Position numbers and translations under genes: made by a program. The notes beneath the pieces were generated by a model. That model saw nothing but the letters and a program-made list of their open reading frames with translations, was not told the DNA's origin and ran no database searches. A stretch of DNA of 64,000 bases from Solirubrobacteraceae bacterium (lineage in GTDB: Bacteria > Actinomycetota > Thermoleophilia > Solirubrobacterales > Solirubrobacteraceae), in the NCBI GenBank assembly GCA_031177685.1, contig JAPSGI010000017.1, forward strand, positions 1-64,000. The letters are read 5' to 3'. How positions within the stretch are numbered: position 1 is the first letter of the stretch; each line of letters opens with the position of its first letter. This document shows, in pieces, positions 2,862 to 7,085 of this stretch.

Positions 2862-3931
2862 GGGCGCGCCACCGGGTAGCCCAGCTGCGACACGAGCGCC
2901 TCGGCGCGATTCGCCGCCGCGTCGCCGGCGATCCACAGCGCGACCACGCCGTCGCGCATGTCGCTGGAGGGGTAGAGCGCCATGTCGTTTATGTCGATCC
3001 CGGCGCGGCCGAGCTCGAGCGCCAGCCGCGCCACCACGCCCGGCTGGTTGGGCACCGAGGCGCGCAGCTCGTGGACCGGGCCGCCGGCGAGCTCGCGCTC
3101 CAGCAGCTGACGCCGCGCCGTGCGGGCGGCCGCGTTCCACTCCGTCACGCGGCGCGCGTCGCCCGTGGTCAATGCGTCGCGGACGTCGGCCAGGCGGCGC
3201 ACGGTCTCGTCGATGCGCTCGACGACCGCGTCGCGGTTGGCCAGGTAGATGTCGGTCCAGATCGCGTCGTTGGCGCCCGCCACTCGCGTCGCGTCGCGAA
3301 AGCTCGGGCCCGCGGCGGGCAGGCGCTCGTCCTCGTCGGCCAGTGCGGCGGCCGCCTGGCCGACCAGGACGTTGGCCAGCACGTGCGGGAGGTGGGAGAC
3401 GCTCGCCATCAGGCGGTCGTGGGCGGCGGCGTCGATCGCGACGGGCCGCGCGCCGTAGCCCGCGATCGTGCGGTGCAGGCGCTCGAAGAGCGTGCCCGCG
3501 GTTTTCGCGGCCGGGGTGAGGTACCAGGTGGCGCCCTCGAACAGGTCGGCGCGCGCGTACGCCACGCCGGCCGTCTCGGCCCCGGCCAGGGGGTGCCCGC
3601 CCACGAAGCGCGGATCGTCGCGCCCCTCCACCACGACGCGCTTGGTCGAGCCGACGTCGGTGACCACGCACTGCTCGCCGGCGGCCCCGAGCACCTCGTC
3701 GAGCACCGCGGGCAGCGCGCCCACCGGCGCGGCGACGAACGCCGTGTCGGCGCCCTGCAGCGCCTCGGCGCTCGACCCGCACGGGTCGTCGACCGCGCCC
3801 AGGGCGACGGCCTGCTCGAGCACGCCGGCGGCCGGGTCGAAGCCGCGCACGCGCGCGCCCGTGCGCTCGCGGGCCGCGAGGCCGATCGAGCCGCCGATCA
3901 GACCGACGCCGATGACCGCTACGACGCTCAG
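2858..3931 (-). CDS. tyrA: prephenate dehydrogenase
   Basis: N-terminal Rossmann VAVIGVGLIGGSIGLA, VVTDVGSTKR, FVGGHPLAGAETAG; C-terminal ACT-like region. Start is uncertain: CTG at 3931 overlapping the aroG stop, or an upstream start inside aroG. Confidence 0.9.
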   Translation of the reverse strand: MSVVAVIGVGLIGGSIGLAARERTGARVRGFDPAAGVLEQAVALGAVDDPCGSSAEALQGADTAFVAAPVGALPAVLDEVLGAAGEQCVVTDVGSTKRVVVEGRDDPRFVGGHPLAGAETAGVAYARADLFEGATWYLTPAAKTAGTLFERLHRTIAGYGARPVAIDAAAHDRLMASVSHLPHVLANVLVGQAAAALADEDERLPAAGPSFRDATRVAGANDAIWTDIYLANRDAVVERIDETVRRLADVRDALTTGDARRVTEWNAAARTARRQLLERELAGGPVHELRASVPNQPGVVARLALELGRAGIDINDMALYPSSDMRDGVVALWIAGDAAANRAEALVSQLGYPVARP

Positions 3932-5010
3932 CTTGCCGCTCGCCGCGCTCGCACCGCCGCCGCAAGCTCGTCGAGGACGCCCACCGTCATGTCCCACGAC
4001 ATGCATGCGTCGGTGACCGACTGCCCGTAGGTCAGGGGCATGCCGGGCGCCAGGTCCTGACGGCCCTCCACCAGGAACGACTCCAGCATGACGCCCACGA
4101 TCGCCCGGTTGCCCTCGCCGACCTGGGCGGCCACGTCCGCGCCCACGGCGGGCTGGCGCGCGTGGTCCTTGCCGCTGTTGTCGTGCGAGGCGTCGATCAC
4201 CAGACGCTGCGGCAGTCCGGCCGCCTGCAGCCGCTCCAGCGCCTCGGCCACCTGCGGCGCCGTGTGGTTGGGCTGGCCGCGGCCGCCGCGCAGGATCAGG
4301 TGGCAGTCGCGGTTGCCGCGCGTGTGGAGGATCGCCGGGGTCCCGCTGACGTCGACCCCCGCGAACACGTGCTGCGCCGCCGCCGCGCGCACCGCGTCGA
4401 CCGCCACGCCGACGTTGCCGTCCGTGCGGTTCTTGAACCCGACCGGCATGGAGAGCCCGGACGCCAGCTGGCGGTGGATCTGGCTCTCGGTGGTGCGCGC
4501 GCCGATGGCGCCCCACGAGACGGCGTCGGAGATGTACTGCGGCATGATCGGGTCCAGGAACTCGCAGCCGATCGGCAGGCCCATTCCGAGCACGTCGAGC
4601 AGCAGGCCGCGGGCCAGCCGCAACCCGGTGTTGACGTCGCCGGACTCGTCGAGGTGCGGGTCGTTGATCATGCCCTTCCACCCGATCGTGGTGCGCGGCT
4701 TCTCGAAGTACACGCGCATCGCCACGCACAGGTCGTCGCCCAGCTCGGCCGCCTTGGCGCTCAGCAGGCGGGCGTAGTCGAGCGCCGCGTCGACGTCGTG
4801 GACGCTGCACGGGCCGACGATCGCGAGCAGGCGGTCGTCCTCGCCGCGCAGGATCGCCGCGACCTCGTCGCGGCCGCGCAGCACGACGTCCGCCTGCGCG
4901 GGGGACAGCGGCTGCTGGTGCAGGATCAGCGCCGGCGTCACGAGCGGTATGACCTGCTCGATGCGCTGGTCGCGTACTTGCTCTTCGGTGGGTGGAAGCC
5001 TGGTTCTCAT
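3928..5010 (-). CDS. aroG: 3-deoxy-7-phosphoheptulonate synthase, class I (DAHP synthase)
   Basis: LAIVGPCSVHDVDAALDYARLL, VYFEKPRTTIGWKGMINDPHLDES, GFKNRTDGN, IDASHDNSGKDHARQP, GQSVTDACMSW. AGGGAAAG ribosome-binding site before ATG at 5010. Confidence 0.95.
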   Translation of the reverse strand: MRTRLPPTEEQVRDQRIEQVIPLVTPALILHQQPLSPAQADVVLRGRDEVAAILRGEDDRLLAIVGPCSVHDVDAALDYARLLSAKAAELGDDLCVAMRVYFEKPRTTIGWKGMINDPHLDESGDVNTGLRLARGLLLDVLGMGLPIGCEFLDPIMPQYISDAVSWGAIGARTTESQIHRQLASGLSMPVGFKNRTDGNVGVAVDAVRAAAAQHVFAGVDVSGTPAILHTRGNRDCHLILRGGRGQPNHTAPQVAEALERLQAAGLPQRLVIDASHDNSGKDHARQPAVGADVAAQVGEGNRAIVGVMLESFLVEGRQDLAPGMPLTYGQSVTDACMSWDMTVGVLDELAAAVRARRAAS

Positions 5011-5055
5011 CTTTCCCTCACTCGCGTCGGGGGGCTCTGCGGACTGGCGTGGCAT

Positions 5056-5101
5056 CTGGCGATCGGGGCCCGGGGGCCCGAGCGCCTAGCTAAATCGCCA
5101 G
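5056..5101 (-). promoter_or_regulatory. candidate attenuator hairpin overlapping the leader-peptide 3' end
   Basis: Minus strand CTGGCGAT (5094-5101) pairs perfectly with ATCGCCAG (5056-5063), enclosing a GC-rich GGGCCC-CC-GGGCCC region; the left arm covers the Trp-Arg codons and start of the Phe codon of the leader ORF. Confidence 0.5.
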
Positions 5102-5178
5102 GCGTAGGCGTAGGAGAACCAGCCGTACTCGCCGCCGGCGGGCGTGGGTGCGAAGGAGATGCCGAGGCGATCGGTCAT
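5086..5178 (-). CDS. candidate aromatic leader peptide (30 aa) upstream of DAHP synthase
   Basis: ATG at 5178: MTDRLGISFAPTPAGGEYGWFSYAYAWRFS*; 9 of 30 residues are F/Y/W, mostly clustered at the 3' end next to a hairpin. Confidence 0.55.
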   Translation of the reverse strand: MTDRLGISFAPTPAGGEYGWFSYAYAWRFS

Positions 5179-5215
5179 GGCCAGGCGAACCTTTGTACCA
5201 GACGGCGCGCCGCGC

Positions 5216-6300: not shown

Positions 6301-6723
6301 CTATTGTGGCGCGCCGGGCGGGCCGCCAGGGCCGAAGCGGCTGGTCTCGCCCTCGGGCAGGCGCCCGTCGCGGCCCACGTAGCCGTCCTTGCCGCCCACC
6401 ACCAGGTACACGGCGTCCTCCTCGCCGACGTTGCGGACCTTGCGGACGGTCGCCGCGTCCACCCGCGCGGCGGCGCCGGGCTCCAGGCGGTGCGCGGTCC
6501 CGTCGCCGAACTCCATCTCGATCGTCCCGCGGTGGACGAAGTACAGCTCCTCCTGCTCGTCGTGGAAGTGGCGGCCGGTCTCCAGGCCCGGCGGCAGGAC
6601 CAGCGCGTTGACCCCGAACGCCTTCACGTCCAGCGCCCGCCGGACCTTGCGGAACCCGTAGCGGTCCCCCATGTCGTCGATGTGGCCGACGGCGTAGCCC
6701 TCGCCGGTGGCGATCTCGCTCAT
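6301..6723 (-). CDS. cupin-domain protein
   Basis: MSEIATGEGYAVGHIDDMGDRYGFRKVRR..., cupin motif GRHFHDEQEELYFVHRGTIEMEFGDG. Confidence 0.85.
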   Translation of the reverse strand: MSEIATGEGYAVGHIDDMGDRYGFRKVRRALDVKAFGVNALVLPPGLETGRHFHDEQEELYFVHRGTIEMEFGDGTAHRLEPGAAARVDAATVRKVRNVGEEDAVYLVVGGKDGYVGRDGRLPEGETSRFGPGGPPGAPQ

Positions 6724-7085
6724 TGGGCGGCCTCCAGGTCGGTGCGCAGGGAACCGGCCTCGCCGAGGTAGACGTGGCGGGGCACGTGGCCCTCCTGCGC
6801 GTGGTAGTGCAGCAGCAGGCGGATGACGCGCGGCAGCGCCCCGGGCCGATCGATCTCCCGCGCACAGAGCAGCGGCACGCGGTCCAGGCCGAGGTTGCGC
6901 GCCGCCACGGCCGGGAACTCCGCGTCCAGGTCGGCCGTCGCGGTGAAGATGCAGCTGACCATCGCCTCGGGACGCAGGTCGTTGCGCTCCATCACCGCGC
7001 GCAGCAGCTCGGCGGTGCGGGCCAGGATCGGCTCCGGCTCGTTGGCCTCCACGTCGATGGCGCCGCGCAGCGCGAACAGTCGCAT
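6720..7085 (-). CDS. aroH: chorismate mutase, AroH type
   Basis: MRLFALRGAIDVEANEPEPILARTAELLRAVMERNDL...SCIFTATADLDAEFPA..ARNLGLDRVPLLCAREIDRPGALPRVIRLLLH; ATGA overlap with the downstream cupin gene. Confidence 0.92.
   Translation of the reverse strand: MRLFALRGAIDVEANEPEPILARTAELLRAVMERNDLRPEAMVSCIFTATADLDAEFPAVAARNLGLDRVPLLCAREIDRPGALPRVIRLLLHYHAQEGHVPRHVYLGEAGSLRTDLEAAQ

Follow-up and report, generated by a model that had tools for sequence, protein, structure and literature searches.

An AroR-like leader peptide with a conserved adjoining helix upstream of DAHP synthase genes in Solirubrobacterales and other actinobacteria

The aroF gene of Corynebacterium glutamicum is preceded by a leader peptide containing Phe-Tyr-Phe (PMC4046766). 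As summarised in PMC11802643 from Neshat et al. (2014), this leader, AroR, raises aroF transcription by stalling under Phe limitation. The aroR leader has also been replaced to relieve the control of aroF by Phe and Tyr, in a study that called the control translational (PMC7356990). The trpL attenuators of Corynebacterium and Streptomyces share end-product codons, a logic of ribosome position and an often leaderless transcript with the locus described here, but they contain only Trp codons, precede trpE, use a U-run terminator and have unrelated triples (gGCC-rGCy-GGCC) (PMC1262725, PMC8079986). The Cys leaders of Mycobacterium are similar to it in having a conserved leader ORF and no intrinsic terminator, with Rho suggested instead, whereas their Cys codons lie near the stop and no conserved hairpin was reported, in contrast to helix P1 below (PMC1262725). 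That survey of actinobacterial leaders lists Trp, Cys, Leu/ilv and ileS candidates and reports no conserved structure for the remaining amino acid pathways (PMC1262725), and none of the eight leaders in a survey of S. lividans belongs to DAHP synthase (PMC8079986). An earlier note on this DNA had stated that no multi-aromatic leader is described in the lineage; this agrees with the literature searched, but has to be qualified by the published Phe-Tyr-Phe leader of AroR (PMC4046766, PMC11802643).

The DNA that we analyzed is a 64,000-nucleotide stretch from a Solirubrobacteraceae bacterium (the window). It carries an aromatic-pathway cluster on one strand, with genes for chorismate mutase type I (6720-7085) and a cupin protein, hisC, the leader, aroG, and genes for prephenate dehydrogenase and aroA, the latter called by eye from the sequence. 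The earlier note had placed a 30-codon ORF between hisC and aroG, 75 nt before aroG, and both the ORF and the gap to the aroG ATG (5010) are present in the sequence (Table 1). This ATG is a likelier start than the one at 5055, because GAGGGAAAG precedes it and because it aligns with the GTG start of a same-genus relative, with which the start of the longer ORF does not align. The leader ends in E-Y-G-W-F-S-Y-A-Y-A-W-R-F-S-stop, and the aromatic richness claimed for it is real: the last 13 residues include three Tyr, two Trp and two Phe. AroR, as far as the summary cited above describes it, is likewise short, contains aromatic codons and immediately precedes the gene of a class I DAHP synthase; it has Phe-Tyr-Phe, whereas the window's leader has W-R-F with Tyr upstream.

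Table 1. Features of the leader region and its neighbouring genes in the window.
Feature	Position	Strand	Evidence or remark
hisC (aminotransferase class I/II)	stop codon 5218-5216	minus	upstream neighbour of leader
Candidate promoter -10 element of leader transcript, TGGTACAAA (TACAAA 5197-5192)	5192..5200	minus	conservation in relatives
Leader peptide ORF, 30 codons + TAG, MTDRLGISFAPTPAGGEYGWFSYAYAWRFS-stop	5086..5178	minus	coding frame kept in 120 relatives
Aromatic-rich codons Y18 to F29, YGWFSYAYAWRF	5092..5127	minus	aromatic/frame comparison of relatives
Nucleotide-conserved core, TGGCGATTTAGCTAGGCG (Trp-Arg-Phe-Ser-stop and foot of P1)	5083..5100	minus	119/399 class genomes
Helix P1 5' arm, GGCGCTCGGG, from third base of stop codon	5077..5086	minus	pairing and covariation in relatives
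Helix P1 3' arm, CCCGATCGCC, one mismatch to 5' arm	5058..5067	minus	pairing; arm also in same-genus relative
Shine-Dalgarno-like sequence of aroG, GAGGGAAAG	5011..5019	minus	sequence; GAAAGGA at same place in relatives
aroG, DAHP synthase class I, presumed regulated gene	3928..5010	minus	PF00793, E 6.8e-84

The end of the leader is conserved at the nucleotide level. A 16-base core, UGG CGA UUU A.. UAG GCG (pattern TGGCGATTTANNTAGGCG), was found in 119 of the 399 genomes of the class, once per genome apart from a second match on an 809-base contig in one of them; the reversed pattern, searched over the class genomes as a control, gave no match. All but one of the core-bearing genomes come from three families of the window's own order. 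Each of the 120 distinct copies precedes a DAHP synthase gene (AroF 69, AroG 43, AroF-AroG pair 8), and a position before other genes (trp, phe) is thereby ruled out for every copy fetched. None of the 22 AroF loci sampled from other orders in the class, as well as from three genera and one additional family within the window's order, contained the element.

Comparison of the 120 copies indicates that the leader ORF is conserved as a coding frame, which supports its translation. The peptides vary strongly except in the aromatic-rich stretch that ends in W-R-F-x-stop, where x is S, T, I, R or M. In the one other genome of the genus that was compared, the leader lies upstream of an AroG with 81% identity; its N-terminus differs and its end is identical (DYRWFTYAYAWRFS-stop). 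Frame 0 contains a mean of 2.82 aromatic codons in the ten codons that precede the core, and the other frames 0.48 and 0.12. Across the 20 preceding codons, stops are absent from frame 0 of every leader and interrupt the other two frames in 17 and 36 leaders. Of the 120 copies, 119 have a Tyr among the 12 codons preceding the core, 55 an extra Trp and 57 an extra Phe. The leader Tyr codons are divided almost equally between UAU and UAC (108:103), so at these positions the amino acid rather than the nucleotide sequence appears to be selected.

The last Phe codon and the neighbouring Arg codon behave differently, being UUU and CGA throughout the copies found. Since both are rare in three nearby genes (UUU in 0 of 25 Phe codons, CGA in 2 of 97 Arg codons), their fixation suggests that codon choice or the RNA itself is under an additional constraint. 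This invariance is partly ascertained, as the core was searched as a fixed pattern, although loci anchored on AroG and a mismatch search agree with it. The latter, allowing up to three mismatches in 32 genomes without an exact core, recovered leaders ending in W-R-F-R-stop, Y-R-F-I-stop, P-R-F-S-stop and L-R-F-T-stop, most of them with recognisable P1 arms, which suggests that the Trp is less constant than CGA-UUU and the GGC that follows the stop. In one locus, L247 (G029:C3:90380-90402), the stop TAG is replaced by CAG and the frame continues through the P1 5' arm, as it does in Actinomycetia. Two AroG-like frames, at G005:C1:33787-34863 and G055:C106:8013-9104, contain in-frame stops (TGA and TAG in the former, TAG in the latter) and are possibly decaying or mis-assembled copies.

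By the comparative evidence, P1 is a conserved, covarying helix. Its 5' arm starts with the third base of the leader stop in relatives (GGCGNNCGG), and its 3' arm lies mostly 20-60 nt downstream. Nine or ten of the ten pairs form in 105 of 120 loci, compared to 26% of shuffles, and all ten in 67% of loci, compared to 2%; most of the remaining loci have a one-base bulge. In 40 distinct loci without the bulge, 98.6% of P1 cells are paired versus 39-43% in slid versions, and almost no shuffle equals the real set, but such pairing percentages lean high because the 3' arm was picked by complementarity. The stronger evidence therefore comes from two-sided changes, which occur in five of nine pairs in these loci (CG/UA at columns 19-20, AU for GC at column 18). 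The window's own P1 hairpin folds at -19.3 kcal/mol (z -2.0), with one mismatch and an unusually short loop, while the folding energy of the whole leader region does not exceed that of shuffles (z = -0.06). The AroR-type layout, i.e., UUU, about 5 nt, the helix and a second arm tens of nucleotides downstream, is also that of the order; the loop in the window is much shorter. The 3' arm of the same-genus relative, CCGAGCGCC, is absent from the window, and the CCCGATCGCC arm is present in both genomes.

A different switch had been proposed in the earlier note, in which two copies of CCGATCGCC (5174-5166 and 5066-5058) compete for GGCGAT at the Trp-Arg-Phe codons, the downstream pairing extending to an 8-bp match between CTGGCGAT and ATCGCCAG. 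The two copies and the match do occur in the sequence. The competition model was rejected, since the leader-internal copy is absent from the same-genus relative and the conserved helix starts at the stop codon. The CTGGCGAT/ATCGCCAG pairing shares the downstream arm of P1 and is weaker, with a duplex energy of -12.2 versus -18.1 kcal/mol. In loci of one genus (L011, L100, L102 and L181-L196), P1 encloses a hairpin with a CGUGAG loop and a conserved CUCACG lies downstream of P1; the two could form a pseudoknot or kissing interaction.

A promoter directly upstream of the leader is supported by a conserved -10-like element, TG-N-TACAAA, immediately before the leader ATG. TACAA occurs within 24 nt before the ATG in 50% of relatives and in 1% of shuffles, and the element is compatible with the leaderless leaders described in actinobacteria (PMC8079986). 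Of the promoter put forward earlier, TACAAA is present and conserved as a -10-like element, whereas the proposed -35 hexamer TTGTAG shares bases with the end of hisC, and a sigma-70 consensus is lacking. Closer to the DAHP synthase gene, TANNNT is found 30-42 nt before the start in 57% of loci versus 15% in shuffles (e.g., L006, L113 and L210) and is missing from the window; it may represent a second promoter between attenuator and gene. An element noted by eye near the Shine-Dalgarno sequence, CCAGGC, was present in just 10% of loci over the stretch searched.

The same layout extends to Actinomycetia, where leaders ending in Y-W-R-F-[IT]-x-A-P-G-G-A or similar lie upstream of AroG relatives in Mycobacterium, Mycolicibacterium, Glycomyces, Promicromonospora, Cellulosimicrobium, Catellatospora and other genera. 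A pattern search of the phylum with the Mycobacterium-type sequence retrieved four genomes only, all of one genus; this pattern is too narrow to assess breadth, and protein-anchored loci were therefore used instead. The Actinomycetia helix consists of GGCTCCGGG and CCCGGAGCC with the arms mostly 36-52 nt apart, and it has 9/9 pairs in 55 of 65 non-redundant loci, as compared to 6.6% of shuffles. In both groups, the helix begins about 8 nt after the first base of UUU, the shared arrangement being aromatic codons, UUU, about five bases and the helix. Two small Corynebacterium-like genomes of the Mycobacterium family (2.4 and 2.7 Mb; L291 and L292) encode MRMWRFYFSKAPEAETS and MRNWRFYFEWGSGR, and their W-R-F-Y-F agrees with the Phe-Tyr-Phe leader published for C. 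glutamicum aroF. These Corynebacterium-like loci have an intrinsic terminator after the helix, whereas none is detectable in the window's order. Relative to AroR, as summarised in the cited source, the frame in the window's order ends at the foot of the helix and Tyr is added (119/120), usually with Trp. Outside Actinomycetota, a Thermobaculum record (L047) contains NVNYAWFTFRPAPDG about 461 nt upstream of an AroG relative, which resembles the actinobacterial leaders.

Judged by sequence, the element is an AroR-like leader of which the window's order has its own variant. Searches of Rfam 15, including T-box, gave no match to the element in the window or 14 relatives, and neither did NCBIfam for six leader peptides or Pfam for two. 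With no Rfam or NCBIfam model covering it, current annotation misses the element, and it apparently represents a wide, unannotated relative of AroR. In this way a single published attenuator from C. glutamicum becomes a regulator widespread in the phylum at the entry step of aromatic synthesis. Its geometry (UUU Phe codon, about five bases, helix) stays constant across variation in helix sequence, peptide, stop position and enzyme family. The leader is also a naturally occurring regulatory part for engineering the shikimate pathway in actinobacteria.

The conservation of leader peptide and adjoining hairpin in well over a hundred actinobacterial genomes leads us to read the element as an aromatic-supply switch: probably, it is a cis-acting, ribosome-read leader that adapts the DAHP synthase operon to how much Tyr, Trp and Phe is available. 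The conserved coding frame, the invariable position before DAHP synthase, the covariation of P1 and the fixed spacing are the comparative basis for this, and they uphold the central proposal of the earlier note, i.e., a translated, multi-aromatic leader placed to control DAHP synthase through ribosome-dependent RNA structure. The alignment across relatives suggested there as a check gave conserved aromatic codons in 120 loci as well as the covarying downstream helix. The stalling, the direction of the switch and its output we infer. Transcription would start a few bases before the leader ATG, giving a nearly leaderless leader, and a ribosome would read the variable peptide and then the aromatic-rich stretch and W-R-F-x-stop. 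When charged tRNA-Tyr or tRNA-Trp is short, it would stall at or before the Trp codon with its front edge just before the stop, leaving P1 free to form; with good supply, a ribosome at the UAG would cover the 5' arm and block P1. By analogy with AroR, formation of P1 would turn the gene on.

To model the effect of ribosome position, 117 loci were folded under a ribosome-sized mask. The mean P1 probability was 0.68 with the A site on the codon before Trp and 0.71 on Trp, dropping to 0.04 on Phe and 0.00 on the stop. This suggests that stalling at Tyr or Trp would permit P1 and that a finished leader would prevent it. Because P1 is already blocked with Phe in the A site, the model predicts that running short of Phe only at the last codon would not switch the gene on. 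Simple stalling also does not account for the invariant CGA-UUU codons. The modelled ribosome position switches one helix, and the GC-rich hairpin and U-run of a classical attenuator are not detectable in the window's order.

The output can be considered in terms of termination or translation. In a classical transcription attenuator, the P1 3' arm and a downstream segment would form a mutually exclusive terminator hairpin with a degenerate U-run, which we consider possible though on balance doubtful. The 3' arm indeed pairs downstream with a mean probability of 0.36 when P1 is blocked and 0.11 when it is free, and 38 of 52 loci of Actinomycetia relatives, compared to 1.6 expected, have a terminator-like hairpin and U-rich tail no more than 70 nt beyond the second arm. 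In the window's order, however, intrinsic terminators between P1 and the gene are as frequent as in shuffles (2 of 115 loci versus 2.2), and consensus folds of three groups show no conserved second helix downstream. For the attenuator that the earlier note envisaged, the order thus shows no detectable intrinsic terminator, and we do not class the element as a terminator-type attenuator. Transcription-independent control is common in GC-rich genomes, and the leader is close to the gene. Both facts, and the two actinobacterial elements of the leuA/ileS type that act on translation (PMC1262725), speak for translational attenuation, in which P1 or its alternative hides the aroG Shine-Dalgarno sequence. 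Yet its predicted accessibility is the same across ribosome positions (mean change -0.04; a fall of more than 0.2 in 7 of 117 loci and such a rise in one), which led us to reject sequestration as the main output and makes this reading quite unlikely. With no detectable terminator and unchanged accessibility, no OFF structure was identified in the window's order. These two results and the analogy with AroR leave premature termination without a U-run, perhaps Rho-dependent, as the most likely output, rather than hiding of the ribosome binding site. An order in which this terminator is missing raises the testable question of how attenuation proceeds in GC-rich bacteria with few intrinsic terminators.

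What the ribosome senses could also differ from charged tRNA. Nascent W-R-F-x-stop might arrest the terminating ribosome and thereby sense either a free aromatic amino acid or how fast termination proceeds. In that case the switch would be the ribosome halted on the P1 5' arm, tuned by the upstream aromatic codons. TnaC of the E. coli tna operon is a comparable case, with a Trp-containing leader, a conserved end and no intrinsic terminator after it, although it belongs to a catabolic operon induced by free Trp, arrests at Pro24-stop and has no helix at the stop. An arrest would explain why R-F and the stop position are invariant next to a variable N-terminus, why the rare codons CGA-UUU are fixed, and why, in the window's order, stop codon and P1 foot are fused. 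This reading remains improbable, since the frame in Actinomycetia continues past R-F into the helix, so that a stop is not required there, L247 in the window's own order lacks it as well, the x residue is variable, and aromatic enrichment over some ten codons is better suited to tRNA sensing. A broader version, prompted by the invariant CGA-UUU and the fusion of stop codon and helix foot, is that Solirubrobacterales rebuilt an AroR-like leader as a switch without an intrinsic terminator, in which the terminating ribosome, possibly arrested by W-R-F, would both sense all three aromatics and do the switching, with Rho or another mechanism as output; we rate this as speculative and fairly unlikely. 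That the ORF arose by chance in a GC-rich spacer, with no regulation, would agree with a whole-spacer fold no more stable than shuffles. Such an origin is already contradicted by the way core, frame, helix and gene context are kept across 120 loci, and we regard it as extremely improbable.

Elsewhere in the window, the formate dehydrogenase gene (~13432-10577, minus strand) has an in-frame TGA at 13249-13247, in the context QARI-UGA-HSSTVPGLGATFGRGG. This is the usual place of selenocysteine in formate dehydrogenase, and a gene caller would truncate the molybdopterin oxidoreductase there.
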